From a bacterium (GTDB lineage Bacteria; Patescibacteriota; Dojkabacteria; SC72; WJKH01): a stretch of DNA of 55,377 nucleotides. Made by a program: the position numbers and the translations under genes. Positions 9,042 through 40,748 of this stretch are shown here, piece after piece; the stretch's first letter is position 1, and the number at the start of each line of letters is the position of its first letter. The notes under the pieces were generated by a model. That model worked only from the letters and a program-made list of their open reading frames with translations. It had not been told where the DNA came from and did not search any database. The DNA is taken from NCBI GenBank assembly GCA_029547225.1, contig JAKPPS010000039.1, forward strand, positions 1-55,377, given 5' to 3'.

Positions 9042-10058
9042 ATGTTAGGATTTTCGAAGAGAGTCGGTATCGATCTCGGGACAGCAAACTCAATAGTGTT
9101 TTTAGAGGGGCAGGGCGTAGTCTTAATGGAGCCTACAGTAGTTGCCTTAGATGTCTCAAACTACACTGTTATTGCAGTAGGACAGGAAGCAAAAGAGATG
9201 ATCGGTAAGACTCCGGATAATATTGTTGCAAAAAGACCTCTAAGAAACGGTGTAATAGCAGATAGTCGTGTGACAGAAGCCTTATTAAAATATTTCTTAC
9301 GCAAAGCTTTGGGGCGTTCAGCGTTTTTTAAACCTGAGGTTGTGATAAGTGTACCTGCAGGTATTACTTCAGTAGAAAAAAGAGCTGTACTAAAAGCTGG
9401 TATGGGTGCTGGTATTGGTAAAATGCATCTTATCCCAGAACCTCTTGCCGCTGCTATCGGTGCAGGTTTACCGATCCATACTTCATCTGGAAACATGATA
9501 GTAAACATGGGTGGTGGTACTGCAGAAATTGCCGTGATCTCCTTAAATGGGATTGTAGAATTCAGTTCATTGCGAGTTTCTGGCGATGCACTAAATGAAT
9601 CAATTATCGCTTATATGCGAAAAACTCATGGATTACTAATTGGAGAGCAAACCGCTGAACAAATAAAGATAAATATCGGTTCAGCAATTAAAGTTGCCCG
9701 CCCAAAAAGTATGGAGATAAAGGGACGAGATTCGACAGGTGGTATGCCAAGATCAATTACAATAGATTCTAACGAGGTAGCTGAAGCGTTAAAAGTTCCT
9801 TTAACTCAGATAATTCATGCAATCAAGTCGGTTTTAGAAAAAACACCACCAGAACTTTCTGCAGACATTATTGATAGAGGAATGGTCATGAGTGGTGGTA
9901 CTTCGATGTTAAGTGGCCTTGATACGCTATTGACTAAAGCTACTGGCGTTGCAGCCCATGTTGCTGAAGAACCAATATATTGTGTCGCTAAGGGCACTGG
10001 AGCCTCTCTAGAATTGCTTGCTGAAGGCAAACTTACATTAAGTAGTATGCTCGAATAG
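9042..10058 (+). CDS. MreB-like actin-family protein (divergent paralogue)
   Basis: 'GIDLGTANSIVF', 'ALDVSNYTVIAVGQEAKEMIGKTPDNIVAKRPLRNGVI', 'EPLAAAIGAGLPI', 'MSGGTSMLSGLD'; phosphate-2 motif altered to NMGGGTAE. Confidence 0.87.
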   Translation: MLGFSKRVGIDLGTANSIVFLEGQGVVLMEPTVVALDVSNYTVIAVGQEAKEMIGKTPDNIVAKRPLRNGVIADSRVTEALLKYFLRKALGRSAFFKPEVVISVPAGITSVEKRAVLKAGMGAGIGKMHLIPEPLAAAIGAGLPIHTSSGNMIVNMGGGTAEIAVISLNGIVEFSSLRVSGDALNESIIAYMRKTHGLLIGEQTAEQIKINIGSAIKVARPKSMEIKGRDSTGGMPRSITIDSNEVAEALKVPLTQIIHAIKSVLEKTPPELSADIIDRGMVMSGGTSMLSGLDTLLTKATGVAAHVAEEPIYCVAKGTGASLELLAEGKLTLSSMLE

Positions 10059-10100: not shown

Positions 10101-11594
10101 ATGTCTAAGCAAACAAAAAATACGAAAAATTCAAATTCTATTCTTATAGCTACTTTTTTCCTCTTTTTTGCTACAGCGATTATGGGTAGATTATCGGCAT
10201 TTGTCGATTATTATTTTACTTATTGGAATATTGAGGTTAGCGATAGACTGATTAGTAAACTTATTTGGGCAACATTCTATTTACTATTTGTTGTAATTGT
10301 ATTGATAAATGATATTTTTCGTTATTGGCGAGAAATAAACGATGGTAAAGAGTATACAAATGTGAAAAATTCTTTGAGTATCAATACAAAACAAGAGAAT
10401 ATTCAAGGAAAAGTTACCCTTAATAGAAAAAAAGAATTCACTTTCAGAAATAAAATTAATATCCTGATATTAAAAATATGGGAAAGTAAAGTTGCTTTCT
10501 ACAAAGAAAACAAGATAATTGTTTGGGCAAGCCTTGCTATAGTTGTATCATCGCTGTTTAGCGCACTTTTCGCTTATAATAAATCTGAATCTATTTGGGG
10601 ATTACCATATTATGCATTGCTAGTTTCAATACCGTTGATGATCAAATATGTGTGGGGTAATAAACTACAGTTTAAGCTAGTAATTTTCCAAAATATTATA
10701 CTTATTGTACTTGCACTTGTAGCACTGTATCAAAGTCGAATTTACAATTATTTGGGTGCAGAAGTTCATCCAGTAATTAGTTTTTTTGATACTTATGGTG
10801 GATTTATGCCAATTAGCTTCTTTTTGATATGGGATGATTTGATTTATTTGAGGCCAAGCTCTTTAATGGTTGATCCAAATTTTCTAGCAATCTTCTCTGT
10901 TATAGCGTTATCTTATAATGCTGCATTTCTTCCTCGAGTCAGAGAGATTAAAAAACATTTTTGGCGTATTGTTACAACCGTAATTTTGTGTTCATCCATT
11001 TTTTCGGTTGCGTATATAGTAATTGCCTCAGCTTCGCGAACTGCTGTTTTGATGCTGGTAGTAGCGATTTCCACATATTTAACAATAAAAGTAGTAAGTT
11101 ATATCTCAAGTAGATTATCTCTAGTTAGAAAAAAGCCTGCTAAACTCTATTCAAGTGTGATTTGGGTTTATCTGTATAATATCTATCTTCGGATCAAAGA
11201 TGGATTACTTTTGAAGGACGTTTCTTCTTTACAAAGAATAGAATATGCCAAGATTTCTTTACAAGCTTTTAAAGAATATCCGGTTACTGGGATAGGCATA
11301 GGATCGTATGGAGATTACTATCGTAATGTTTTTGATAGCAGTGCGGGTGTTGCAACCCCTCATAATGCATACATGAGAACATTGGCAGAGATGGGTTTTC
11401 TAGGTGTCGCAGCCTTTCTTTTTTATTTTGTTGCATTTGTAAAAGTAATCTTAGATAACCGAAAATATATTTATTTAGCAACATTATTTGGGATTGTGGC
11501 AGGTTCTATCTTCTATGATTTTATTATGACTCCCTGGATGTGGATTTATTTTGGTATAATATACGCTGATGCTACTAATAAAAAAACCGAATAA
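10101..11594 (+). CDS. O-antigen ligase/polymerase-like (Wzy/WaaL superfamily) membrane protein
   Basis: Multiple TM segments and late signature 'GIGIGSYGDYYRN..ATPHNAYMRTLAEMGFLGVAAFLFYF'. Confidence 0.8.
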   Translation: MSKQTKNTKNSNSILIATFFLFFATAIMGRLSAFVDYYFTYWNIEVSDRLISKLIWATFYLLFVVIVLINDIFRYWREINDGKEYTNVKNSLSINTKQENIQGKVTLNRKKEFTFRNKINILILKIWESKVAFYKENKIIVWASLAIVVSSLFSALFAYNKSESIWGLPYYALLVSIPLMIKYVWGNKLQFKLVIFQNIILIVLALVALYQSRIYNYLGAEVHPVISFFDTYGGFMPISFFLIWDDLIYLRPSSLMVDPNFLAIFSVIALSYNAAFLPRVREIKKHFWRIVTTVILCSSIFSVAYIVIASASRTAVLMLVVAISTYLTIKVVSYISSRLSLVRKKPAKLYSSVIWVYLYNIYLRIKDGLLLKDVSSLQRIEYAKISLQAFKEYPVTGIGIGSYGDYYRNVFDSSAGVATPHNAYMRTLAEMGFLGVAAFLFYFVAFVKVILDNRKYIYLATLFGIVAGSIFYDFIMTPWMWIYFGIIYADATNKKTE

Positions 11595-12738
11595 AAATTC
11601 AAAAATAATGAATCTTGCACAAGTTGATGAGATTTTGTTGCAAATAAGGCTTCCTTTGAGCCTTGTTTTGACACCTATCAATCTTGAAGTTGAGCGAAAA
11701 AAGTTTTTCGATTCAGATAGTTATGAACCACATTTCAAATATCGAGTTGTCAAGAACAAGAATTTACAGATATTTGAAAGTCTGAGTGAACTTGAGGAGA
11801 TTGATGATGTCGATCCTAGGATTTCCGATATGTATCTGAAATTAATAAGGCAGAAATCGGAAACTAACGATTTGATGAATAATGTCGGCAATAACGAAAA
11901 GTTTACGCAGATAGCTATTAAGAAATTTGGTATGCCAAGTGCAAAATTATTTCGAAATGCTTGCCGAGTTTTAAAAGGAAGAACTTCAATTTACAATGTA
12001 AAAAGTGATACGCGAATGCAGGATACCTCAAGCTTGAATTATTCAGAAATATCATCGATTGTTGATGAATTCTTTAGGTATGCAGGCTTAGAAGGCTGGA
12101 AATCGGGTATCTCTGCAAATATCGCTAGCAATGGTGTAAAAGCTGGTGTCAAAACAAAAGTTTTGCTTATGGATAAAGATATTATGAAAAAGCCTTTTGA
12201 CTTAAGAAAAACTATTGTCCATGAGATCGGCACTCATGTTCTTCGTGCAGAGAACGGCTTGAAATCAGGTTATGGAGTTTTTTCAAGAGCTAATCTTAAT
12301 TCGTATTTAGATACTGAGGAAGGGCTTGCACTTTACAATGAGGAACTTTTTGGCGTATTAACCCTTGAGTCTTTGCGTAAACGAGCTTTATTTGTTTACC
12401 TTATAGGGGTAGGGCAGAATTGTACTTTTAGAGAGCTTTACAATATTTCTTTAGGATTCTTGAAGCCAAAAGATGCTTTTAATACGGTATTGAGAGTCAA
12501 GCGAGGGATTGGTGATGGTTCCCAAGCTGGTATCTATCCAAAGGATATTGTGTATTTCAGAGGATTTAGAAGAGTTAGGAAGGCTATAGATCGCTCTCCA
12601 ACTATTTATAAATCTCTCTATGCGGGGAAAATCAGTCTCAAACAAGTAGAGTGGGTAGAGGAAGGTTTGTTGCCAAAAGCTAAGATATTTCCGGATAAAG
12701 AAGAGTATTCAAGATTATTCAAGAAATTGGGGATTTAA
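11569..12738 (+). CDS. DUF1704 (MATCAP/QEGLA-type) metallopeptidase
   Basis: 'KTIVHEIGTHVLRAENGLKSG' and 'DTEEGLALYNEE', matching the HExxH...EGLA pattern of PF08014. Alternative ATG at 11608. Confidence 0.82.
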   Translation: MLLIKKPNKNSKIMNLAQVDEILLQIRLPLSLVLTPINLEVERKKFFDSDSYEPHFKYRVVKNKNLQIFESLSELEEIDDVDPRISDMYLKLIRQKSETNDLMNNVGNNEKFTQIAIKKFGMPSAKLFRNACRVLKGRTSIYNVKSDTRMQDTSSLNYSEISSIVDEFFRYAGLEGWKSGISANIASNGVKAGVKTKVLLMDKDIMKKPFDLRKTIVHEIGTHVLRAENGLKSGYGVFSRANLNSYLDTEEGLALYNEELFGVLTLESLRKRALFVYLIGVGQNCTFRELYNISLGFLKPKDAFNTVLRVKRGIGDGSQAGIYPKDIVYFRGFRRVRKAIDRSPTIYKSLYAGKISLKQVEWVEEGLLPKAKIFPDKEEYSRLFKKLGI

Positions 12739-15276: not shown

Positions 15277-15318
15277 GTAATGGTGACGGTTACTTGCTCT
15301 GTAAAACGGTTGGTTACA
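15277..15318 (-). repeat. Bipartite intergenic element family 2, copy A
   Basis: Minus strand TGTAACCA-N21-CCGTCACCATTAC; both halves recur at 27281-27322 with identical spacing. Confidence 0.75.
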
Positions 15319-17125
15319 ATTTTATTATCTCTTTGATTAATCTTTGGTCTATAGCTTGAGCAATGCCGTTATATCTCGTGAGATCAAATGAAGTAATTAG
15401 CGTATCAATCCTATCAAATCCTGTGCCATGTAGAGCGACTTGTTCCGGATTATCAAAGCAATGGCAAATAATATCGAGATTCCTATTCCTTTTAAGTGCA
15501 AGTATTGCATTTCGATATTGTAAATTACCATTTATCAAGTGCCCGTTATTGTATATTGTTTCGTTGTGATAGGTTCCGATATTCAGTTTCTCATTATGTA
15601 TTAATTCAGTAAGTTTCGTATCTGTAAGATATTTCTCAAGTTCTTTGAGTGGGTCGGCGGAGATTATAACTATCTTTTTACATTTATTATTTTGTACGAT
15701 TAATCCATCTACAAATTCTTTGATCGCTTCTGGACGATTTTTTCCTTCGGATGGAAAAATATTTAAATACATTTCAGGCATCATGTTTACCTCAAGAATC
15801 GTCCCATTTTCGAGTGTTAATGGGGCAGAGATATCTTTACATAGTATATCTATCCCGACGCAATAAGCATGCATGGATTTAGCTATTGAAACACAAATAT
15901 CTTTGATCTGAGGATGTACAATATCGGTAACATCTTTTGTCATACCACCTTGACTCATACTTGCAGTTTTGCGAACATAAATCCTTTGACCTTTTGTTGG
16001 AATATCAACGTATGATAAGTCTTGCTCTTTGAGGAATATCTCAAGCATCTCATTTTTTTCGATCGGCTTGAGTGTATGAGTTGGATTAAGTTTATCTCTG
16101 TTTGGATCTCTATTAATTTCATCTATGAGTTGTTCAATATTACTTGTGCCATCGCCGATAACATAAGCAGGTATTCTTTTAGTTGCGGCAACATATTTTC
16201 CATTGATTATCAAAATTCGATAATCTTCTCCGCTAACTTGTTCTTGGATAATAATCTTTGTTTGCCAAACGGCTCTTATTTTCTTATGTATTGCTTCATA
16301 AGCCATTTGTATCGCTTTATAAGCCTGTTCTTTTGAAATAATATTTGTCGTTACTCCAGCACCACCGGTAAGTCCGTTTGGTTTTATTACAAAGGGTTTT
16401 TTATAATTGTCGAAAATACGATCAACCTCAAGTTTGCAATCATCAATCTCTTCTCCAAGTAAGTGCCAAGGAGCGTTTGGTAGTCCGAGATTATCAAAAA
16501 ATGTATTTGAAGGTATTTTATCTCTTTGTATTTTTTGTGCGATATGACTATCAAAAGATGAAGATGCGGCACAGTTGATAGAACTTTCACATGCGATTCC
16601 AAGCAAATAATACTTATTTATTGACGAAATCCCTTCGCCAGATCTTTGATTAACGAAAAACTGATTTATTTCGTAACCTTGGTCGATTGTTTCAGTAAGG
16701 ATTGGAATTGTACTCATCGATTCAATCTGTTTCTTAATAATGTCGGAATGGATTTTATTATTGGTTTCTTCAAAACTAAGTTTTGCATCTAGATACTCAT
16801 ATACAACATTAAAAATCTCTGACCAGAGATTGGGTAGGTGAGAGTAAACAATAAATTTGTGGATATCAATAGTTGCTTTTTCTTCGCCATTGTGGGTAAT
16901 TTTATCTTTCAATCCACTAATAGAGACATTTTCACCTTTTCGAAATGTGTGTAGCAGTTTATCGTATTTGCTGTAGTATTCAATCCTGTCGCCAAATAAT
17001 CGGTGGTAATTAATGATTATATTTAATAGCTCAATTATCTTTTCATCAACAATATAGCTCGATTTGAAAGAAATCGAAGTCAACATGCTATCTAAGTTTA
17101 TTCCTTGAATTATTTTTATCTCCAT
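15314..17125 (-). CDS. Cyanophycin-synthetase-like ATP-grasp ligase with truncated/vestigial Mur-ligase-like C-terminus
   Basis: 'PFVIKPNGLTGGAGVTTNI', 'GEDYRILIINGKYVAATKRIPAYVIGDGTSNIEQLIDEINRDPNRDKL', 'ILEVNMMPE'; C-terminus 'GTYHNETIYNNGHLINGN...LHGTGFDRIDTLITS' with no GKT/S P-loop. Confidence 0.82.
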   Translation of the reverse strand: MEIKIIQGINLDSMLTSISFKSSYIVDEKIIELLNIIINYHRLFGDRIEYYSKYDKLLHTFRKGENVSISGLKDKITHNGEEKATIDIHKFIVYSHLPNLWSEIFNVVYEYLDAKLSFEETNNKIHSDIIKKQIESMSTIPILTETIDQGYEINQFFVNQRSGEGISSINKYYLLGIACESSINCAASSSFDSHIAQKIQRDKIPSNTFFDNLGLPNAPWHLLGEEIDDCKLEVDRIFDNYKKPFVIKPNGLTGGAGVTTNIISKEQAYKAIQMAYEAIHKKIRAVWQTKIIIQEQVSGEDYRILIINGKYVAATKRIPAYVIGDGTSNIEQLIDEINRDPNRDKLNPTHTLKPIEKNEMLEIFLKEQDLSYVDIPTKGQRIYVRKTASMSQGGMTKDVTDIVHPQIKDICVSIAKSMHAYCVGIDILCKDISAPLTLENGTILEVNMMPEMYLNIFPSEGKNRPEAIKEFVDGLIVQNNKCKKIVIISADPLKELEKYLTDTKLTELIHNEKLNIGTYHNETIYNNGHLINGNLQYRNAILALKRNRNLDIICHCFDNPEQVALHGTGFDRIDTLITSFDLTRYNGIAQAIDQRLIKEIIKL

Positions 17126-18524: not shown

Positions 18525-19706
18525 TTATATATCGTGATCTCTTATGTATTCCATGATTGGTATTGCAACTTTTATAATATTACCAGCATCTGGCTTGTAG
18601 TGAAGTCTTAATCCAGGATTGTAATTTATTTCGTTAATGGCACATTCTGTTGGTTTGGTTATATCTGGAGTAATCAGATCAACGCCACCATATTTCAAAC
18701 CGATTGCTTTTACTGCTTTGATAGCAAGATCGATGTAGTACGGGTGTGTGATATCTGCACATTCTTCTGTTGTACCACCGGTAGTGAGATTTGCATTGTA
18801 TCTCAAAAATATTTTTTTGTCTTTATCGATTACGGATTGCAGATTGTATCTGAGAGTTAGTAATTTACTTATTGTTTCAACATCTATGGGTATTGGTAAT
18901 AATAATCTCTCACTTCTTAAAATATTCTTTGCATCTATAAGTTGTTGTATTGTGCTTGTGCCATCTCCAATAACATATGCTGGGACTCGGTGTACTATTG
19001 CAATAACTCGATTATCAAGTACCAATAATCGATAATTCTCACCTTGGATAAACTGCTCAACCAAAACTTCTGTTGGTACTTTTGCGTGATTATTATCAAC
19101 AGCAAACTGATAAGCCTCCTGAACATCTTGCAAAGCAGGTTTCGAGGATAGAATTTCGGGTGAGATTGTAATGTTTTCTGAAGTGATACTCCCCCCTAGT
19201 ATCTTACCGTTACCTTTGATACTCCCGGGGAGTATACTTTGGGACTGTTCTTCAATCTGATTAGTAAGAGTCGAGGACACAGTAAGATCAGCAGGTTTTT
19301 CGAGCACTTTCCTTAAGCCGGGTAGGATAGAAACTCCGTGTCCGCCTAATGCTTGTAATGGCTTGATGACAATATTTTTAAGCATTAGATATTTTTCGAT
19401 TGCCTCTTGCGGATTTGAAACTACGAACTGTTTTGGTACTGGGATATCGAATTTTGATAAAACTTTGTTTGTAAGGCTTTTTCTCTTTGCAATAGTACTA
19501 CTCGGTGTGTTGACTAAGGGGGTTACAGTATTTGCAATGTACCAATGTTTATTATTATATATAAATTTTGCGAGTAATCCTTTCTCAATAATTTCATATT
19601 CGATATTTAATTGATCGGCTGCTTCTACAAAATATGATAGGTGGATATTTCCAGCAATCTTAAGGTAGTTATTTTGTAAAGTGCTTTTTTGTCGTTTTTT
19701 ATCCAT
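18525..19706 (-). CDS. Cyanophycin-synthetase/GshAB-like ATP-grasp ligase (no Mur domain)
   Basis: 'NIVIKPLQALGGHGVSIL', 'VEQFIQGENYRLLVLDNRVIAIVHRVPAYVIGDGTSTIQQLIDAKN', 'GGVDLITPDI', 'INEINYNPGL'. Confidence 0.82.
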   Translation of the reverse strand: MDKKRQKSTLQNNYLKIAGNIHLSYFVEAADQLNIEYEIIEKGLLAKFIYNNKHWYIANTVTPLVNTPSSTIAKRKSLTNKVLSKFDIPVPKQFVVSNPQEAIEKYLMLKNIVIKPLQALGGHGVSILPGLRKVLEKPADLTVSSTLTNQIEEQSQSILPGSIKGNGKILGGSITSENITISPEILSSKPALQDVQEAYQFAVDNNHAKVPTEVLVEQFIQGENYRLLVLDNRVIAIVHRVPAYVIGDGTSTIQQLIDAKNILRSERLLLPIPIDVETISKLLTLRYNLQSVIDKDKKIFLRYNANLTTGGTTEECADITHPYYIDLAIKAVKAIGLKYGGVDLITPDITKPTECAINEINYNPGLRLHYKPDAGNIIKVAIPIMEYIRDHDI

Positions 19707-20036: not shown

Positions 20037-23000
20037 TTGAGTACTACAAAAAACACTTTTTCTTTTATTAACTTGATCAGGTTCATATTGATCTTGGGGC
20101 TTTTTGTTACAGTTTTTTATGCAACTTTTGATAGGCAGATAGCACGCACTTTTGGTACTCATACGATGCCAGAGTATGATGGTAAATTTCCGCTGAATAG
20201 CAATTATGCCTTTAGTCATGTTATTGATATTGGTGCGAATCTGGATAGTGTAACTATTGCTGACCAGTTTCATGATAATGTTGATTGCGTTTATTATACA
20301 GATTTTTATGTATTTGATCTCGCAGGTTCGCTTATTACTTCTTGGTCTGATGATACGCTTGGTCGTATAGGCGGTATGGATATGACTGAAGATGGTAGAG
20401 TGGTGCTTGTGGATGAGAGTAATTTAATTATCGTGACTTATGATAGTGATGGTTCAAACCGTTCAGACAGGGGACTTAATTTACCAAGCCAAGCGTCTAG
20501 TTTTGTGATTGAGGGTTTGACTCTTTCTCAAGGTGGAGATGTGTATGTCGGAGTTGAATATACAGATGACACAGAATACAACAAAATATATAAATACTCT
20601 CGCAACGGCGAATTTGTTACAAGTTGGGGAGAAAGAGGTACGGGTCTTGGTCAATTTTCTGACATAATAGCTTTAAATCTTGATTCAGATGGGTATATTT
20701 ATGTGTTAGATGAAGCAGGTAAAGTCGCAAAATTTACTCCTGATGGAACTTTTGTCTATGAGTTTAATCATGGGATCGTTCCCAATCCTGGTGAATCAAT
20801 CGTTGATATTGCTATTGATAATACTGACACAATAATGGTTTCTTATCAACAGTATGTCTATTTGTATGATCAGACAGGTGGATATATCGATCGAAGAGAT
20901 ATTAGTACTGAGGCGTATTGGGGAGAGGCAGTTAGTTGGTTGAGAATAGATGTTAATAGTGATGGAGAAATATTGATAGGTGACGATGGTAATCAGGGTA
21001 TATATTATTATGATGATTCTTTCGCATTACTTGATAGATTTTTGTCAAAAATATCTTGGGAGGGTGGCATAATACCATCTTATACTGGTGATGGTGATAT
21101 GGTAATTGACGTTAATGGAAACCTTTTCTTTACGAATAATCTAGATAAAACAACGGTTTACAATAGTGAGGGGATATTGATAGATGCTCTCGAAATTTAT
21201 GCTGAAGGTGGTATGGATTTTGATAACCAAGGTAATTTATATTATGTTGATAGTGGTAATTTTATTAGGCAGTACGATAGCAATAGAAATCCTATAAGTA
21301 CTTGGGGCAACCAAGGTTTAGGCAATGATATTGAGTACGCAGAAAAAATCGCAATCAGTCCAGATGGATATATATATCTTACTGATCCTCGGGGTTGTTA
21401 CTACAAAGTTGATAATAGTCATAATGTTATATTCAAGAGGTGTAACAGTGAGATTGATGGTCAACCTAATTTACACACATATATAACAGATTTGGTTTTT
21501 GATAGCCAAGGTAACTATTATATAATTTTTAATGAGAATGATTTAAGTCATGTTAGTGCTTTTACATCAGAGGATGTTTTTATTGAAAGTTGGGGGAGTG
21601 AGGGCACTGCAGATGATCAATTTAATTATGTCTCCTCAATGACTATTGATCATAATGATGATTTATGGGTTGCTGATACAGGAGCAGATTGTATCAAAAG
21701 GTTTACAACGGATGGTGAATATACAGGTAAGATTTGCGATTATGATGGAAACCCATTTGAAACTGTAGCATATATTATGTATCAAGATGGAGTTATATAT
21801 GTTGCAGATGCTTCAACTCGAGAGATAGTTATGTTTTCATTTGATACTTTGCCACCAGAAATTGATATTGTAGCGCCTACGAAAAATAAGACTGCTACGA
21901 TAACAGATACGACAATTGAGATTTATGATAATCGCGGTTTGTTATCCGAAGATATTGTTGTTGATAATGCTTCAACAGCAGATTATACAAATCTTAGTTG
22001 TCAGCAAGTAGATCCTAATAATGTAAGCTGTACAATAAATATTACCTCTAGCGGTAACTTGATTATTAATGCAATCGATATTGAGGGAAATCTTGCCACT
22101 TTAAGTGAAAATGGCTATGTTGTAGATTTGCCACCAGTACCTGTGATACTTACAAGTGTTGATGGTGTAACTGGTTTTGCCGATAATGATACTCTGACAT
22201 TTAGTTTAGAAAATCGTAGTCCTGTCATTGTGGGAGTATCAGATCCTGATACAACAATTTTCTTTTTAGCTGGTACAAATCGTTATCAAGCAACTCCTGA
22301 TGCTGGGGGAAATTTCACCTTGACTTTACAAAATCCACGCTTACCTCAAGGTTCTTCTGTGTCATTGTTATATTGGGCAAGAGATGGTAGTCGATCCTTA
22401 TCTACGGTAAAAACGCTAAATATTACTGTTACGGCACCTGATGTGGACACTGCTGAGACTCAACCGATTTATCAATATCTATATCTTCCAAAAGGAGCTC
22501 AGCGTCCTTCTGGCACAACACCAATTGTTGAACTTCCTACTGTTGTACCATATGAACAGGTCGAACTACCAACGATAGTAACAGAGGAAGAAACCATCCC
22601 AATACCAACAAGACGTCTTCCAAATACACAAGTTGAGAATATCGGTACTAGTTGGATAACATCAGAACAAGCTCAGGAGATAGCGATGTGGAGTGCTGGC
22701 GGAGCAGTTGTAGCATTTACTGTTGCAATGATATTAGGAGAATCGAATCCTGTTGCATATGTATTTAGATTTATTACTTACGCTTTTGGTTGGTTGAAGG
22801 TCAAGAAAAAGCATAATTCGTTTATTGTCGTTTATGATGCTGTTACAAAGGAGCCAATCTCGTTGGCGATAATAAGGTTTATTAAGTCAGGTGGTGGTCT
22901 TGTAGATACTCAGGTTACAAATGAATATGGGGTTGTGGATGTTGCATTGCCAGACGGAGAATACAATCTTGTTGTTGCCGCTCGAGATTACAAATATCCA

Positions 23001-23594
23001 ACTAGTGTTATCACAGTAAGTAATGATGAAGTTTATGAAAACATTTTTCGTGGTGGCAAGCTTAATGCAAAAGAGGGTATACCTCTAAATATTTCGATAC
23101 CTCTTGATCCGATTTTGAGTAGTGATAAAGCTTACAATGTAGCAAAATTCAGAAGTGTATTAGCGAATATGGTTGAAGTATTGCAATATCTACTTTTAGT
23201 TGTTGGTTTTATTTTTGCAGGTATAGCTTATCTAGGATCAAGTACTACACTAAATCTTGTTGTGCTGGCTTTATATTTCTTAATAATCATTATAAATATT
23301 TATATAGCAATAAAAGGTAACAAAAATTATGGTCAGGTAAAAGACACTTATGGAAACTTTATTTCAGGTATGACTTTGTCTTTAGTTGAGAATAAATATG
23401 ACAGAGTAACTGCAGTTAGAGTTACCGATAAAAAAGGTAAGTATAGATTTGTTGTCCCGCAAGCAGAGTATTCAATTAAAAGTAGTGATGAAAAATATCG
23501 CTTACAAGAGAATATTATTATAAGTAAGAGTAAAGAATCAACCAGTTCACTCATAATAAACAAAAATATATTAGTAGAAAGGATAAGCAAATGA
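20037..23594 (+). CDS. Large NHL-repeat beta-propeller surface protein with C-terminal TM segments and carboxypeptidase-regulatory-like domains
   Basis: N-terminal signal/anchor; repeated 'GEFVTSWGERGTGLGQFSDIIALNLDSDGYIYVLD', 'STWGNQGLGND..ISPDGYIYLTD'; C-terminal 'SFIVVYDAVTKEPISLAIIRF..GEYNLVVAARDYKYP'. TTG start. Confidence 0.82.
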   Translation: MSTTKNTFSFINLIRFILILGLFVTVFYATFDRQIARTFGTHTMPEYDGKFPLNSNYAFSHVIDIGANLDSVTIADQFHDNVDCVYYTDFYVFDLAGSLITSWSDDTLGRIGGMDMTEDGRVVLVDESNLIIVTYDSDGSNRSDRGLNLPSQASSFVIEGLTLSQGGDVYVGVEYTDDTEYNKIYKYSRNGEFVTSWGERGTGLGQFSDIIALNLDSDGYIYVLDEAGKVAKFTPDGTFVYEFNHGIVPNPGESIVDIAIDNTDTIMVSYQQYVYLYDQTGGYIDRRDISTEAYWGEAVSWLRIDVNSDGEILIGDDGNQGIYYYDDSFALLDRFLSKISWEGGIIPSYTGDGDMVIDVNGNLFFTNNLDKTTVYNSEGILIDALEIYAEGGMDFDNQGNLYYVDSGNFIRQYDSNRNPISTWGNQGLGNDIEYAEKIAISPDGYIYLTDPRGCYYKVDNSHNVIFKRCNSEIDGQPNLHTYITDLVFDSQGNYYIIFNENDLSHVSAFTSEDVFIESWGSEGTADDQFNYVSSMTIDHNDDLWVADTGADCIKRFTTDGEYTGKICDYDGNPFETVAYIMYQDGVIYVADASTREIVMFSFDTLPPEIDIVAPTKNKTATITDTTIEIYDNRGLLSEDIVVDNASTADYTNLSCQQVDPNNVSCTINITSSGNLIINAIDIEGNLATLSENGYVVDLPPVPVILTSVDGVTGFADNDTLTFSLENRSPVIVGVSDPDTTIFFLAGTNRYQATPDAGGNFTLTLQNPRLPQGSSVSLLYWARDGSRSLSTVKTLNITVTAPDVDTAETQPIYQYLYLPKGAQRPSGTTPIVELPTVVPYEQVELPTIVTEEETIPIPTRRLPNTQVENIGTSWITSEQAQEIAMWSAGGAVVAFTVAMILGESNPVAYVFRFITYAFGWLKVKKKHNSFIVVYDAVTKEPISLAIIRFIKSGGGLVDTQVTNEYGVVDVALPDGEYNLVVAARDYKYPTSVITVSNDEVYENIFRGGKLNAKEGIPLNISIPLDPILSSDKAYNVAKFRSVLANMVEVLQYLLLVVGFIFAGIAYLGSSTTLNLVVLALYFLIIIINIYIAIKGNKNYGQVKDTYGNFISGMTLSLVENKYDRVTAVRVTDKKGKYRFVVPQAEYSIKSSDEKYRLQENIIISKSKESTSSLIINKNILVERISK

Positions 23595-26500
23595 GAATAT
23601 TAAAAACAATTACAAAAAAGAGATATTTGGAAAAATTAGCAAGTATTGTTCTTACATTAATAATCTCTTTCTCATCGCTTATATCAATTTTCCCAGTTCA
23701 GCAATCAAAAGCTTATCAATTAGTCGGCTTAGAAGATATTGGCAATATCATGCCAGGTTCAACGGATGACTTTACTGCCGAGAGTTTCAAAGATGAAGAA
23801 GGGACTATGATTTTTTATGATGTAGATAGTGCTTTCGAAATTCATATTTCTCAGATAAACAAAAGTGGGGAATTGATATGGAGTAATATGTATATCGATC
23901 TCTCAACTTATGGAATAGATCCGTACGCTCCATCTTTACAACATGATTATATAATTACAGATGGAGATGGTGGAGTATTTATTTTTGGATCAAAGGTTGT
24001 TGATTATGGAGATAATTCACATTTTGATAATAATAATAATGTTAGGAATATTTATGTAGTCCATGTGCTTGTGGATGGAAGTATTGATGCAGAATTTCCA
24101 CAAAGATTTATGCCTGCATCATTCGATCAAGAAATTCTTTCAGCTTGGCCAGATTATCAGGGCGGTTTTGGTATTTTTTATAAGTCTAAAGTTTTGAGTG
24201 ATTTTATATTTGAGTATAGACTACAACATGTTTCTGCTGATGGTACATTGCTCTACAATGTTAATGACTATGTAGATGTGCCACAAGTTAGTATGCACTG
24301 TACAAATCAAGATTTAGCTTCTCAGGCTCAGATCCCTTTTGATATGCAATATTATCATTATGGTTTTTCCTTTTATGGATGGAGAGAGTGTTGGGAGTGG
24401 TGTCAAGAAACTATTGATGACGCTCATCCTTTTTGCCAATATACAGCAACAGATAATCGCAGTTGTTCTGTAATCGGAGCTCCCGGAGAAAATATTGATA
24501 ATTGTACTTGGGATACGCTATCTAATAGCTTGGGAAACAAATGGCCAGCATTTTATGGAGTCAAACAAGATTTATTACCAATAACTTCAGGTGACGATAT
24601 AATTATGGAGCCTTATGCTCAAGCCTTGGATAATGTGGGTATATTAGTTGGTGAAAGCTCGATATATCATCCAAGTTATATGTCTGAATATCTACTTGAA
24701 GTTAAAGATGCAAAGTATCTTGCAGATGGAGATTTACAAATTATGTTTGAAAGAAAAAACTATGAATTTGAATCAACAGAAAGTATTGTGGTACAGCAAT
24801 ATGATGCAATAACATTTACTCCCAAATATGATGGTATGGGTATAGAGTATCACGGAGATGCACCTTTGACAGATCTATCAAACCCTTATGGTATTGAATA
24901 TAACGGTAAATTACTCGGTGAAGAAGGTTGGTATATTACTCAGATTAGAGATATGGATTTAGATTCTAATAGAGAGAAATTGATTATTGCAAAGCATAAT
25001 TTTGATGGTACTTTATCTTGGCAAAATACTTACGAATATGAGCTTGATAATGATGTCTATTCTTTTAGTTACGATTTTCGGTATACACCTCTTTCTAATC
25101 TTGTGGTGGACGATCAAAATAATCTAATTTTTGCTTGGGATGTATATAATTGGATGGAATCAGATTATTTTCTGATGTCTTTTTATCAAAAATATGACAA
25201 AAACGATGGTACCGGTATGTGGGGTACTTATCCAAATGAGTTAGTCAGTTACGAATATAGTGTAGGCAATCTACTTTGGGAGACTGCGCTTTATACTGAT
25301 AGTGATAACGGTGCTTTCATAACATTCTTTGTGGATGATGAAGATGCAAATTTTTTGATAGGTCGTATTGATGAGAATGGCATTTTTGATGATTTTAATC
25401 AAAGTATTTTTATCGGGCCATGGACAAGTAATTGGCCAAATGTTTTCAAAGGAAATACTGGAGATGGGTTATTTGCACTTGCCGGTCCAGGTCTACTTGA
25501 TATATATAAAATGAAACTAGCTAACCAAATAAAAGTAAACCAAGGGTATGCAGTATATAGTGATGAAGTAACTAATTTTATTGATACGACCACAGATATT
25601 GGAGTTACAAAAGATGATAATAATTATCAAAATCGTGTTAGAATATTTAATAATGCATTGATGGTATCTTCTCTATTTGCTGATGTCAGCACGGATAGAG
25701 ATTGGACAAATGTTGTAGCTCAAAATAGCTTAGAATTACAAAAGGCTTTTATTACAGGCTTTGATTCAACAGATGGAAATTATCTTTTCCATGATTTATA
25801 TATCCCATATGATTCTCAATTACCACTTGCTGCAAGAGCGATTGTATGTCCTGATGCAACAAGTTTTGCAACGATAAGTCGTACATGTACAGGAGCTTAT
25901 GCTATTAATGTGGATCAGGCAATAAATCCTCTCAGCCTTGTTTCATTTGGAGGTTTATCATATTGGAAAATACCAAATCTGACAGGTACGGGAGTTATGC
26001 TTGAAAGTGCATCTACATTTGAAATTACTCCAAGCGTATCCCAAGTCGAGCCATCAACAGAAATATCTGTAATAGTCAGTGCGCTTGATGCAGATGGCCA
26101 AGTCGATACTAATTATGTTGGTACGATAAATTTAATATCTCAGTCAGGTGCTGTTTTGCCTTCGAGTTATACATTTACGGTTGCAGACGCAGGTGTACAC
26201 ACATTCACAGGTGTAAAATTTAACAATACAGGTACATATACAATTATGGCCACAGATACACTAGATCCAACATTGAGCGGTGTTTCGGCGAATATTATTT
26301 CTGCAGATGCGGACTGGGATAATGGAGAAGAGGATCCAGATATAGTTGTGCCACCACAAGATCAAGAAACAATAATCATTGATCCTTCATGTGCAACAAA
26401 TACACAAAGGGAAGAATGCCAAGCAGAATTAACTATCAGCAATGTTGAAATTATAGATGATAATGATGGAGATACAAATATTGACAGATCAGTATGTTGG

Positions 26501-27211
26501 GATACCAATCTCGAATCTCAAGGATTAATAAATTATGGTACGGAACAAGAAGAATTTTATCAGTTCTCTTCACCAGCAGAAATTAATTATGTTGTTACAA
26601 ACCATTGTATTAATATTGATGAGCTAGAAAACAATAGTAGATATTTTTTCAAAATCTCATCAGTTTCTTATGCCGGTAAAGAAACTGAATACGAAGGCAC
26701 TTTTGATATCGGTAACTATCTTGGAGATCAAATTGACCAGCCCGAAGATTTTATTATTGTCGATGAGGAAGAGGTTATATCTCAGTCAGAAGCTATTATT
26801 GATACAGAGGGATTACTTGATCTTAATCTCGATTTACAATTCAAGACACCACAAGAGGCGACATGTTATTTAAAATATGGATTATCATTAAATAATCTCG
26901 ATAAACAGAGTCAATCAAATACAGTTGGTACTGTCCATAATTACAATATTAATCTTCAAGACCTCTCCTATGAAGATAAAGTTTTTTATGAAGCCTATTG
27001 TCAGAGGATTATCGAGGAAGGTCAAACAGATGCAGGCGGAGAAATGTTATATCTCAAAAGAGGTACTGTTGAGATGGTCCAGATTGATACTGTAGATGAA
27101 CAGAAAACTGTAACAGTTACTGTAATGCTTGGATTATTCTTGATAGGCTTGATATCTGTAGTTCTTTTGATAACGGGATATCTTAAGATTACTAAGAAAA
27201 AAACTATTTAG
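23591..27211 (+). CDS. Large secreted/surface protein, C-terminal TM anchored, translationally coupled to preceding gene
   Basis: N-terminal signal segment, Ig-like 'ISVIVSALDADGQVDTNYVGTINLIS', C-terminal TM 'VTVMLGLFLIGLISVVLLITGYLKITKKK'; ATGA overlap with upstream stop. Confidence 0.8.
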   Translation: MRILKTITKKRYLEKLASIVLTLIISFSSLISIFPVQQSKAYQLVGLEDIGNIMPGSTDDFTAESFKDEEGTMIFYDVDSAFEIHISQINKSGELIWSNMYIDLSTYGIDPYAPSLQHDYIITDGDGGVFIFGSKVVDYGDNSHFDNNNNVRNIYVVHVLVDGSIDAEFPQRFMPASFDQEILSAWPDYQGGFGIFYKSKVLSDFIFEYRLQHVSADGTLLYNVNDYVDVPQVSMHCTNQDLASQAQIPFDMQYYHYGFSFYGWRECWEWCQETIDDAHPFCQYTATDNRSCSVIGAPGENIDNCTWDTLSNSLGNKWPAFYGVKQDLLPITSGDDIIMEPYAQALDNVGILVGESSIYHPSYMSEYLLEVKDAKYLADGDLQIMFERKNYEFESTESIVVQQYDAITFTPKYDGMGIEYHGDAPLTDLSNPYGIEYNGKLLGEEGWYITQIRDMDLDSNREKLIIAKHNFDGTLSWQNTYEYELDNDVYSFSYDFRYTPLSNLVVDDQNNLIFAWDVYNWMESDYFLMSFYQKYDKNDGTGMWGTYPNELVSYEYSVGNLLWETALYTDSDNGAFITFFVDDEDANFLIGRIDENGIFDDFNQSIFIGPWTSNWPNVFKGNTGDGLFALAGPGLLDIYKMKLANQIKVNQGYAVYSDEVTNFIDTTTDIGVTKDDNNYQNRVRIFNNALMVSSLFADVSTDRDWTNVVAQNSLELQKAFITGFDSTDGNYLFHDLYIPYDSQLPLAARAIVCPDATSFATISRTCTGAYAINVDQAINPLSLVSFGGLSYWKIPNLTGTGVMLESASTFEITPSVSQVEPSTEISVIVSALDADGQVDTNYVGTINLISQSGAVLPSSYTFTVADAGVHTFTGVKFNNTGTYTIMATDTLDPTLSGVSANIISADADWDNGEEDPDIVVPPQDQETIIIDPSCATNTQREECQAELTISNVEIIDDNDGDTNIDRSVCWDTNLESQGLINYGTEQEEFYQFSSPAEINYVVTNHCINIDELENNSRYFFKISSVSYAGKETEYEGTFDIGNYLGDQIDQPEDFIIVDEEEVISQSEAIIDTEGLLDLNLDLQFKTPQEATCYLKYGLSLNNLDKQSQSNTVGTVHNYNINLQDLSYEDKVFYEAYCQRIIEEGQTDAGGEMLYLKRGTVEMVQIDTVDEQKTVTVTVMLGLFLIGLISVVLLITGYLKITKKKTI

Positions 27212-27493: not shown

Positions 27494-29017
27494 CTATCTC
27501 ACAAAAGTTTTACTTGGATCAATAAGGAAACCTTTTAATTCTTTACGACCGATGAGTAGGGGAAAGATCATCTCTTTTTGGGTACTTATGATTGTCTCAA
27601 ATTTCATTGTTAGACCGCGCATTTTGATATCTATTTCGATAACAGGTTTTACACGGATTTTACCATCTTCAAAAATTTTTGCGAGACGGACTATTTCACC
27701 TTTATTATTCTCTTTTTCTATAATAACCTTTTCTACTTTATCAATAAATTCTTGAGCATCAGCATAATTTTCAAAGGATCTCGGTATATCCAATTTATTA
27801 AAATTTTTTATTGTTTCAGCAAAACCTATTTGAGCAGCAAGTCCATCATCGATACGAGAAGTTGTTATGCCAGTATCGAGTAAACCCTTGATGGTAGAAG
27901 TTTTTTGTTTAATTTTGATTTTATTTTTTTTCAGTTTGATTTTAGTTGTTGGCTTATGATAAACAATAATTTTCTCTACAAGATTGACTATTTCTTTACC
28001 TGATAACTGTTCAATATCCTCCTCAACTTGACCTCCGAAAAGATCTTTTGCAATCCTGATACCATGTTTATCATTTTTTATGTTTATTTTCTTAACTAGT
28101 TCGAGACGATCTCTTAGTCCACACATATTAGCTATTTGGATCGCTAGACCGGGTCTAGCGTTGAGTTCAAAGACCATAGGGCCATTATCTCGGTCAATCG
28201 CGATGTCGACACCTGCGAAGCCAAGGCCACTAGCTTTTTGGCATTTGATGGAAATATCTAATATTTCGTTCCAATAAGGGATTTTGAAACCTCTTAAAGG
28301 AAGATTAATATCTAAATCAAGCGTTGAATCAACAATGTCATAAATATCGTCGATAAGGGATTTTTTATTTCTATGGATAGCGACAGTTGTCAATCCTGAA
28401 GCTAAATCGATACCGACACCGATGCCTCCAGCGTGGAGATTTGCAGTACCATTAGATTCTTTTGTTGGGATGCGCAATTCTGCCATAATAGGGACACCTT
28501 TAAAAACAATAACTCGAACATCTGGAACTCCTTTATAACAATATTGTTTTAATGTGGCGTCGTTTTTTAAGCGCTCTTCAATTATTGCAATATCTTTCTC
28601 TTCACCCATCGAAAATCTACCGTCTAATATGTTTTCGATATGTAATTGGATGTCTCTTTGAGTCATAATTTGTCCATTTGGCCTAATCCATGCCTGTTGG
28701 TCATTTACAAGTTTTTTTTGTTTTCCGTAAAAAACAATAATTCCATTTCCTCCTGTACCGCGGTTTGGCTTTATGACAAAACTTTTTGGTAAATTTGCCC
28801 AATCAAGATTGTTGATCTGTTTTTTACTTCGGATCACAAAAAATAATTCGGGAGTTTTTATGTTTATCCTCGAAAGTAGGCGCTTAGTTAATAATTTGCT
28901 GTCAACAATTTTTTTAGCCCAACGAGGATTGTATGGTCTTACATATTCTTGATTACGGCGATTTATACCCAATATCTCGCCAGTAATATTTTTATTTTGT
29001 AATATTTCTGCTATCAC
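27494..29017 (-). CDS. Alpha-L-glutamate-ligase-like ATP-grasp protein fused to C-terminal RimB/retropepsin-like aspartyl protease domain
   Basis: 'SFVIKPNRGTGGNGIIVF', 'FAGVDIAIDRDNGPMVFELNARPGLAIQIAN' (ATP-grasp); C-terminal 'IKGLLDTGITTSRIDDGLAAQIGF...FPLLIGRKELKGFLIDPSKTFV' (DTG plus LLIGR..L, PF05618-like). Confidence 0.87.
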   Translation of the reverse strand: MIAEILQNKNITGEILGINRRNQEYVRPYNPRWAKKIVDSKLLTKRLLSRINIKTPELFFVIRSKKQINNLDWANLPKSFVIKPNRGTGGNGIIVFYGKQKKLVNDQQAWIRPNGQIMTQRDIQLHIENILDGRFSMGEEKDIAIIEERLKNDATLKQYCYKGVPDVRVIVFKGVPIMAELRIPTKESNGTANLHAGGIGVGIDLASGLTTVAIHRNKKSLIDDIYDIVDSTLDLDINLPLRGFKIPYWNEILDISIKCQKASGLGFAGVDIAIDRDNGPMVFELNARPGLAIQIANMCGLRDRLELVKKINIKNDKHGIRIAKDLFGGQVEEDIEQLSGKEIVNLVEKIIVYHKPTTKIKLKKNKIKIKQKTSTIKGLLDTGITTSRIDDGLAAQIGFAETIKNFNKLDIPRSFENYADAQEFIDKVEKVIIEKENNKGEIVRLAKIFEDGKIRVKPVIEIDIKMRGLTMKFETIISTQKEMIFPLLIGRKELKGFLIDPSKTFVR

Positions 29018-29666
29018 GCTCGAGTATTTGTTTAAATCTAAATAATTCTGTGAATCTCAAAGAGCTTGATTTACCAATCAAAACATTGATTAAAATTATG
29101 ATAGCTAATATCCACAAATTCCCGAATAGAAAGTTTGATATTGGGGCAAATTTCATAATCGACCAGCCAAGTAAAGCAATTAAAATGGTTTCAGCGATTG
29201 ATCTGATCGTTGTTGCTATATCCTTTTTAATGTAAATTTTCAGGATAAAATCTGATAAGGTCGCTATCAAAGCTACTGAGACGGGTGATAGAGTAGAGAA
29301 GTTTAGTCCAAATTGTAAAAATGGAATAGCGTTAACTAATAATAGTACTCCTGCTAAAACCAATACGAGAATTATGTAATTGGTTGTTAGTCTGGCGATA
29401 TAATGCATCCTAATTTTTTTTAATAAGGCATGCGAAAGTAATGTAGTTGCTATTACTATCAGTGTAAAAAATATTCCAAGTTTAGCGCCAGAAAGAAAAT
29501 ATGCAAGAGCTAAAATAAGTGCTGGGTACACTCCCAGGCCTTTGAGTCCAATAAGATATCTGAATACATTTGTTAAAGTTGCCGTAACCGGAATCAAGAT
29601 AATCAGGGTTAATATCATCTCTTGTGATAATCCATTATTTGTAAGCCACATTGTTATTTCATTCAT
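28992..29666 (-). CDS. 7TM_transglut-like integral membrane protein, overlapping the downstream ATP-grasp gene
   Basis: Hydrophobic; 'LIPVTATLTNVFRYLIGLKGLGVYPALILALAYFLSGAKLGIFFTLIVIATTLLSHALLKKIRMHYIARLTTNYIILV' resembles the 7TM module found with inactive transglutaminases. 26-bp overlap. Confidence 0.72.
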   Translation of the reverse strand: MNEITMWLTNNGLSQEMILTLIILIPVTATLTNVFRYLIGLKGLGVYPALILALAYFLSGAKLGIFFTLIVIATTLLSHALLKKIRMHYIARLTTNYIILVLVLAGVLLLVNAIPFLQFGLNFSTLSPVSVALIATLSDFILKIYIKKDIATTIRSIAETILIALLGWSIMKFAPISNFLFGNLWILAIIILINVLIGKSSSLRFTELFRFKQILERDSRNITK

Positions 29667-39695: not shown

Positions 39696-40748
39696 ATGTT
39701 ATTTGACTCATTATTAAATCTAGTTACATACGATATCGGCATTGACCTTGGTACATCCAATACATTAGTTTTCTTACGAGGGAAGGGTATTGTTATATCT
39801 GAGCCATCAGTAGTTGCCATTAACAAAAAAAATAAAACTGTATTAGCAGTTGGTTTAGAAGCAAGACAAATGATAGGTCGTACTCCTGCAAATGTTGTTG
39901 CAAGTAGGCCACTAAGAGATGGAGTTATTTCCGATTTCGATTCTACGCAGGCAATGATTCATTATTTTATCGAAAAGGTGCATAGATATTCTCCAAAAAC
40001 ATTCGTTATTCCGAGACCAAGAGTAATTGTTGGTGTTCCTTCTTCGGTTACTGAAGTTGAAAGGCAGGCTGTCATCGATGCAGCGAAAACCGCAGGCGCA
40101 CGATCAGTATTTATTGTTGAAGAAGCAATGGCTGCAGCAATCGGTGCGGGGCTTCCGGTCGAAGAGGCTTCTGGAAGCATGATAATTGATATAGGTGGTG
40201 GTACGACAGACATTGCAGTTATTTCACTTGGAGATATTGTAGTTGATAAAACGTTGCAGGTTGCAGGTGATGAAATGGACCAGGATATAATAAATTATGC
40301 ACGACAAAAGTATAATCTACTTATTGGTGAGCGCACTGCCGAGGATGTTAAAATCGCAATCGGTTCTGCTTATCCATTAAAAGAAGAAAAATCAGTCATT
40401 ATACAAGGTCGAGATTTAATTAGTGGTTTGCCAAAATCAGTTGAGTTTTCAAGTATTGAGGCTCGTGAGGCAATAATGAATTCGATCATCAAGATTTTAG
40501 ACGCGATTAAGGATGCAATCGAAGAGACACCTCCAGAGTTACTCTCTGACTTAATATCTTCAGGTGTTTATCTTGCAGGGGGCGGAGCTATGATAAAGGG
40601 TATTGATAAACTATTTCAAGAGGAGTTGAAACTTCCTGTAAAAATTAGTGAAGAGCCACTTTCTGCTGTTGCTAAAGGTACAGCATTAATGCTTGATCAC
40701 ATTGAATTATTGCAACGTATCCAGAGATCTTGGGATGAGCTTCAATAA
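39696..40748 (+). CDS. mreB: Rod shape-determining protein MreB (canonical)
   Basis: 'DIGIDLGTSNTLVF', 'MIIDIGGGTTDIAVISLGDIV', 'LAGGGAMIKGID'; upstream of mreC/mreD. Confidence 0.96.
   Translation: MLFDSLLNLVTYDIGIDLGTSNTLVFLRGKGIVISEPSVVAINKKNKTVLAVGLEARQMIGRTPANVVASRPLRDGVISDFDSTQAMIHYFIEKVHRYSPKTFVIPRPRVIVGVPSSVTEVERQAVIDAAKTAGARSVFIVEEAMAAAIGAGLPVEEASGSMIIDIGGGTTDIAVISLGDIVVDKTLQVAGDEMDQDIINYARQKYNLLIGERTAEDVKIAIGSAYPLKEEKSVIIQGRDLISGLPKSVEFSSIEAREAIMNSIIKILDAIKDAIEETPPELLSDLISSGVYLAGGGAMIKGIDKLFQEELKLPVKISEEPLSAVAKGTALMLDHIELLQRIQRSWDELQ

Follow-up and report, generated by a model that had tools for sequence, protein, structure and literature searches.

The stretch of DNA analysed here, hereafter the window, comprises 55,377 nucleotides of a Dojkabacteria genome (Patescibacteriota; contig JAKPPS010000039.1) and encodes an ATP-grasp ligase fused to a retropepsin, next to an RloB-type 7TM protein. 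We incline to the view that these genes form a cytosolic module writing and erasing acidic chains, most likely of glutamate, under the 7TM partner, and that the eraser role has been passing from the retropepsin to a MATCAP-type carboxypeptidase. The architecture, synteny and co-occurrence of the module, as well as the conservation and loss of its residues, are established by sequence comparison. Operons of the rloABC type and RimBK hybrids have already been published, and a ligase/retropepsin fusion is therefore not new in kind. A fusion in which the ligase comes first, accompanied by a bare 7TM protein across Patescibacteria, was not found in the literature searched, nor were the triple fusion with MATCAP and the paired decay reported below, part of the gene associations being possibly covered by Iyer et al. 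2009; the search also returned nothing relevant on PDB entry 8FXH or on ATP-grasp operons of Patescibacteria.

The fusion protein and its 7TM partner

The two genes and the domains of the fusion are located as follows.

28992 to 29666, minus strand: 7TM protein, membrane half of RloB only, 224 aa (PF14402, NF052267)
27494 to 29017, minus strand: ATP-grasp ligase and retropepsin fusion, 507 aa, GTG start
28091 to 28960, minus strand: ATP-grasp domain of the fusion, residues 20-309 (PF14397)
27494 to 27994, minus strand: retropepsin-like domain of the fusion, approximately residues 342-507 (profile matches to 9G58, 9G59 and 2PMA)
27869 to 27877, minus strand: DTG codons of the fusion, residues 381-383

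An earlier note on this DNA had claimed that one chain carries a glutamate-ligase-like ATP-grasp domain and a RimB-like aspartyl protease domain with an LLDTG motif, and both assignments hold. The match to PF14397 (ATPgrasp_ST), at 1.9e-64, spans residues 20-309. The best NCBIfam match of the ligase part is the RloC-like model TIGR02291 (279.8 bits for a cut-off of 314), and the RimK family remains below its own cut-off (46 bits for 143). Residues K83, R168, R182, D271 and E284 of the ATP-grasp domain are invariant in the alignment of relatives and N286 is present in 144/145. The AF2 model of the fusion (pLDDT 87, pTM 0.67) gives the ligase part a fold resembling those of RimK and ArgX.

The protease half, in which LLDTG occupies residues 379-383, required a more sensitive comparison. 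Among the three domain families proposed in the earlier note, PF14397 and PF14402 match, but PF05618 scores below its cut-off (2.7e-4, 21.3 bits for 27); NCBIfam RloA3 (1.3e-4) likewise falls far under the cut-off of the model. A family profile of 24 members, on the other hand, finds the RloA structures 9G58 and 9G59 (PMC12239564) at about 1e-10 and 2PMA at 7e-7, which makes the retropepsin assignment sound. The DTG motif and this profile match place the window protein among the A2 retropepsins of the RimB/RloA type. No hydrophobic segment of the fusion reaches the cut-off and no transmembrane segment separates the two domains, so that both are expected to work in the cytosol; in Pseudomonas, by contrast, RloA is secreted and RloC cytosolic (PMC12239564).

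A frameshift or an assembly artefact joining two genes is ruled out since the ligase-retropepsin fusion recurs in 164 loci. Its length varies: loci L132 and L191 encode frames of 854 and 921 aa with some 400 residues of unassigned sequence and an intact DTG. At L042:4120-5505 the fusion gene is split into two frames, corresponding either to a broken gene or to a sequencing error.

The GTG start of the fusion overlaps the end of the 7TM gene by 26 bp (28992-29017), exactly as had been reported, and the reading of the latter as a 7TM_transglut-like gene devoid of its transglutaminase part was also correct. PF14402 matches at 8.3e-15, and the transglutaminase part is considered absent because the match to NF052267 (RloB) covers only positions 309-506 of 508. 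The AF2 model of this protein has a pLDDT of 89 and its comparison with the PDB gave no match better than E 3. In amidoligase operons, ligase, RimB-like protease and 7TM/inactive transglutaminase protein are said to be encoded usually by neighbouring genes. The 7TM gene lies directly upstream of the fusion and on the same strand in 154 of the 164 ligase-retropepsin loci, with overlap in 71. Two 7TM proteins (L037:7222-8730 and L042:2583-4082) display an N-terminal PKD domain replacing the transglutaminase domain.

The wider module and its distribution

The association of a fusion with a stand-alone 7TM protein, on which the earlier note had focused, is real but gives an incomplete picture: it is the norm in the group, and three further ATP-grasp ligases and a MATCAP peptidase encoded in the window belong to the module. 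These genes and their neighbours are listed below.

18525 to 19706, minus strand: second ATP-grasp ligase, cyanophycin-synthetase-like, 393 aa
17172 to 18416, minus strand: glutamate dehydrogenase, between the second and third ligase genes
15314 to 17125, minus strand: third ATP-grasp ligase, resembling the front half of cyanophycin synthetase, 603 aa
12949 to 13947, minus strand: fourth ATP-grasp ligase, RimK-like, 332 aa
11569 to 12738, plus strand: MATCAP/TMCP-type (QEGLA) zinc carboxypeptidase, 389 aa, HExxxH ... EEG
9042 to 10058, plus strand: MreB, upstream of the MATCAP gene, a conserved neighbour in Dojkabacteria

The usual order in Dojkabacteria is NusG-L11-L1-L10-L7/L12, 7TM, fusion and three ATP-grasp genes, converging on the MATCAP gene and mreB; the second ligase gene directly follows the fusion in most Dojkabacteria read. 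All parts of the module are present in the window, but the genes of the glutamate dehydrogenase and of two large plus-strand proteins (20037-27211) are inserted among them. The dehydrogenase was seen inside the ligase operon in the window genome only among the Dojkabacteria read, and could possibly act as glutamate supplier. The two plus-strand proteins (1185 and 1206 aa), which interrupt the ligase operon in this genome, include a first member with NHL-like and carboxypeptidase-regulatory-like matches. The window also contains two mreB genes (9042-10058 and 39696-40748), the second heading a mreC/mreD/PBP2-like run.

The protein encoded at 11569-12738 possesses the HExxxH and EEG motifs of the MATCAP/TMCP enzymes (KIAA0895L, KIAA0895; PMC10499314) and matches PF08014 above cut-off (7.4e-31) and the KIAA0895L structure 7z5g at 6e-37; its residues H218, E219, H223, E250, E251 and G252 are invariant in the alignment. 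What sets the present proteins apart from these relatives is that they are bacterial and that an ATP-grasp ligase is co-encoded with them or shares their chain. Cyanophycin synthetase (CphA1) is matched in its ATP-grasp half by the second and third ligases, which, unlike it, lack most of the Mur-ligase-type domain; the side-chain arginine step is therefore not expected.

Two published systems are closest to this module. The rloABC operon of Pseudomonas (PMC12239564) similarly places an ATP-grasp ligase (RloC), an RloA-type retropepsin and an RloB-type 7TM protein side by side, and RloA (9G58, 9G59) provides the nearest solved retropepsins to that of the window fusion. In Pseudomonas, however, these are three separate genes, RloA is exported and RloB retains an (inactive) transglutaminase domain, whereas in the window the ligase and retropepsin are fused, the 7TM protein is devoid of this domain and the Dojkabacteria module adds extra ligases and MATCAP. 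The RimBK hybrid of Desulfotalea psychrophila, described in 2025, also combines a retropepsin and an ATP-grasp ligase in one chain; it cut polyglutamate, and no glutamylation was obtained with the S6 protein tried (PMC11957791). RimB is N-terminal in this hybrid and its ligase is RimK, while the domain order is reversed in the window protein, whose ligase is outside the RimK family; no 7TM partner has been described for RimBK.

The earlier note had suggested checking whether the fusion is present in related CPR genomes, and 85 of the 97 relatives compared match it. When the phylum was sampled evenly, 158 of 381 Patescibacteria genomes matched the fusion at E <= 0.001 and 115 strongly, with E below 1e-50. 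Among these 381 genomes, 72 have both a strong fusion match and MATCAP, 43 the fusion only, 17 MATCAP only and 249 neither. MATCAP thus occurs in 72/115 strong-fusion genomes and in 17/266 others, an odds ratio of 24.5 that is not corrected for phylogeny. The Dojkabacteria genomes G018 and G019, 94-95% complete, are without fusion, 7TM and MATCAP alike. The fetched loci, which were collected by similarity to the fusion and do not form a random sample, yielded 165 distinct ligase proteins, or 164 after dropping one proteobacterial protein without retropepsin. In the Desulfobacterales locus L149, the retropepsin, the 7TM protein (511 aa) and the ligase are three separate genes. Outside Dojkabacteria, elsewhere in the phylum, the module adjoins other genes. 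Within seven genes, PBP1A (checked by Pfam) was found in 33 loci and MreB in 20; each proximity could stem from common ancestry within a small number of lineages.

Retropepsin decay and MATCAP

Forty-two of the 165 proteins carry MATCAP fused behind the retropepsin as a third domain, which was confirmed by Pfam for three of them. All 42 triple fusions have HExxxH, and 9 retain the retropepsin triplet (DTG, DSG or DTS), as compared with 114 of the 123 proteins without fused MATCAP (Fisher p 2e-18, for rows related by descent). On a quick ligase tree the triple fusions fall in about three branches; there are four changes for the MATCAP fusion and nine for the state of the retropepsin, and an independent-pairs test had too few pairs and was underpowered. 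Two triple fusions, L170 and L171 (1027 and 1011 aa), are some 200 residues longer than the others.

The loss extends to the putative substrate-binding residues. RloA and RimB cut polyglutamate (PMC12239564, PMC11957791), which RloA contacts through K46, R92, R114 and R137, the last two being the most important (PMC12239564). The HMMER alignment to 9G58 served to place the equivalents of K46, R114 and R137, by residue counting. Once the Dojkabacteria order and the small NTG clade are set aside, 89 of 90 double fusions keep all of K46 (or Arg), D48, R114 and R137, and the equivalents of these residues are all intact in the 22 genomes of this set (22/22) where the MATCAP search found nothing. 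The polyglutamate-binding residues are degraded in five MATCAP-associated lineages. In contrasts uncorrected for phylogeny, erosion is seen in the triple fusions, in the Dojkabacteria order, where MATCAP is a separate gene, and in the NTG clade, where it is the next gene in 3/4. One exception to this pattern was encountered, L151:4228-5517, whose retropepsin motif is NTK and whose 15-kb contig carries no MATCAP. In ten double-fusion loci that also have MATCAP as a separate gene the retropepsin is intact, which argues that MATCAP permits the loss of the retropepsin without forcing it.

The window protein itself keeps DTG and has L379, K457 and Q480 at the positions of RloA K46, R114 and R137: two of the three basic residues are lost (K46 to Leu, R137 to Gln) and the third is Lys. 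The idea, put forward in the earlier note, of forming and cutting activities in one chain is thus supported as regards the two domains and the DTG motif, but cutting is less sure: these replacements, despite DTG, make polyglutamate cleavage by the window protein doubtful, and MATCAP may do the erasing. Judged from these residues, much of the erasing in this species probably falls to MATCAP.

Proposed function and its alternatives

In the mechanism that we propose, the ATP-grasp domain would use ATP to add acidic residues to a target that could be a protein, a peptide or an envelope precursor, and the fused retropepsin would remove the residues so added. The fusion of the two domains would bring addition and removal into one compartment. 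The further ATP-grasp ligases of the operon may extend or vary the chain, and the MATCAP/TMCP-type carboxypeptidase, nearby or as a third domain, would constitute a second eraser. TMCP1 and TMCP2, animal homologues of MATCAP, shorten glutamate chains on tubulin (PMC10499314). Where MATCAP is present, the retropepsin can lose its substrate-binding and catalytic residues, as it has in several lineages, and a carboxypeptidase of the deglutamylase type would repeatedly have taken over the eraser role from it. The two erasers are unrelated and their families share a known substrate; that one of them decays only beside the other, and that both stand next to a conserved ligase, suggests that glutamate or similar acidic residues are added and removed. 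An envelope role is suggested by the proximity of PBP1A to 33 loci and of MreB to 20 and by the cell-shape and hypo-osmotic defects of Pseudomonas rlo mutants. The example of tubulin led us to consider MreB as a substrate modified at its tail, and this was rejected; the C-termini of the neighbouring MreB proteins are variable and not acidic.

The ten loci that keep both enzymes with an intact retropepsin would also be expected if the retropepsin and MATCAP had distinct substrates or intervened at distinct steps, the decay of the former resulting from a change of pathway and not from a takeover by MATCAP. Their modes of cleavage would fit such a division, TMCPs being carboxypeptidases (PMC10499314) and RimB and RloA endopeptidases. 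We regard this explanation as rather unlikely in view of a degeneration seen only in MATCAP lineages, save for contig L151, and of the fact that both known enzyme families trim polyglutamate. That the retropepsin part serves the ligase chiefly through binding or regulation, with proteolysis secondary, appears less likely still. RimB raises the ATPase activity and polyglutamate synthesis of RimK (PMC11957791), and triple fusions still retain degenerate retropepsin copies; however, a pure scaffold would need neither catalytic nor binding residues, and the 90 double fusions that belong neither to the Dojkabacteria order nor to the NTG clade show almost no variation at D-T/S-G or at the substrate-binding residues.

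The Dojkabacteria module often follows the NusG-L11-L1-L10-L7/L12 cluster and its domains resemble RimK and RimB, which would recall a ribosome-modification system acting on ribosomal protein S6. This is very improbable: the S6 C-termini read, those of eight module-bearing Dojkabacteria genomes (L217, L222-L227 and L230; in 12 further loci the match lay on the opposite strand), are KKKEMDI-like without an acidic tail, the ligase has its best match in TIGR02291 and not in RimK, and the module stands beside other genes elsewhere in the phylum.

We therefore retain the writer and eraser module, with its eraser role passing to MATCAP, as the best explanation. A broader proposal, possible though doubtful at present, is that Patescibacteria possess a bacterial counterpart of the tubulin code, in which one polypeptide would write and erase acidic chains serving the cell envelope under the 7TM partner, and in which an aspartic retropepsin would on several occasions have given up the eraser role to a zinc deglutamylase of the MATCAP/TMCP type, later joined to the writer by fusion.

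The module would unite, in a single chain, the enzyme that writes a probable modification and one or two that erase it, in a phylum with few known regulatory modifications. It offers a natural experiment in enzyme replacement between unrelated eraser families, the decay of one being confined to lineages that have the other. The MATCAP/TMCP enzymes, familiar from microtubules, are here tied to a bacterial ligase, making the origin and substrate of the family testable. Finally, these observations are relevant to the search for the substrate of the rlo operon, whose loss in Pseudomonas has effects on cell shape and on survival under hypo-osmotic conditions.
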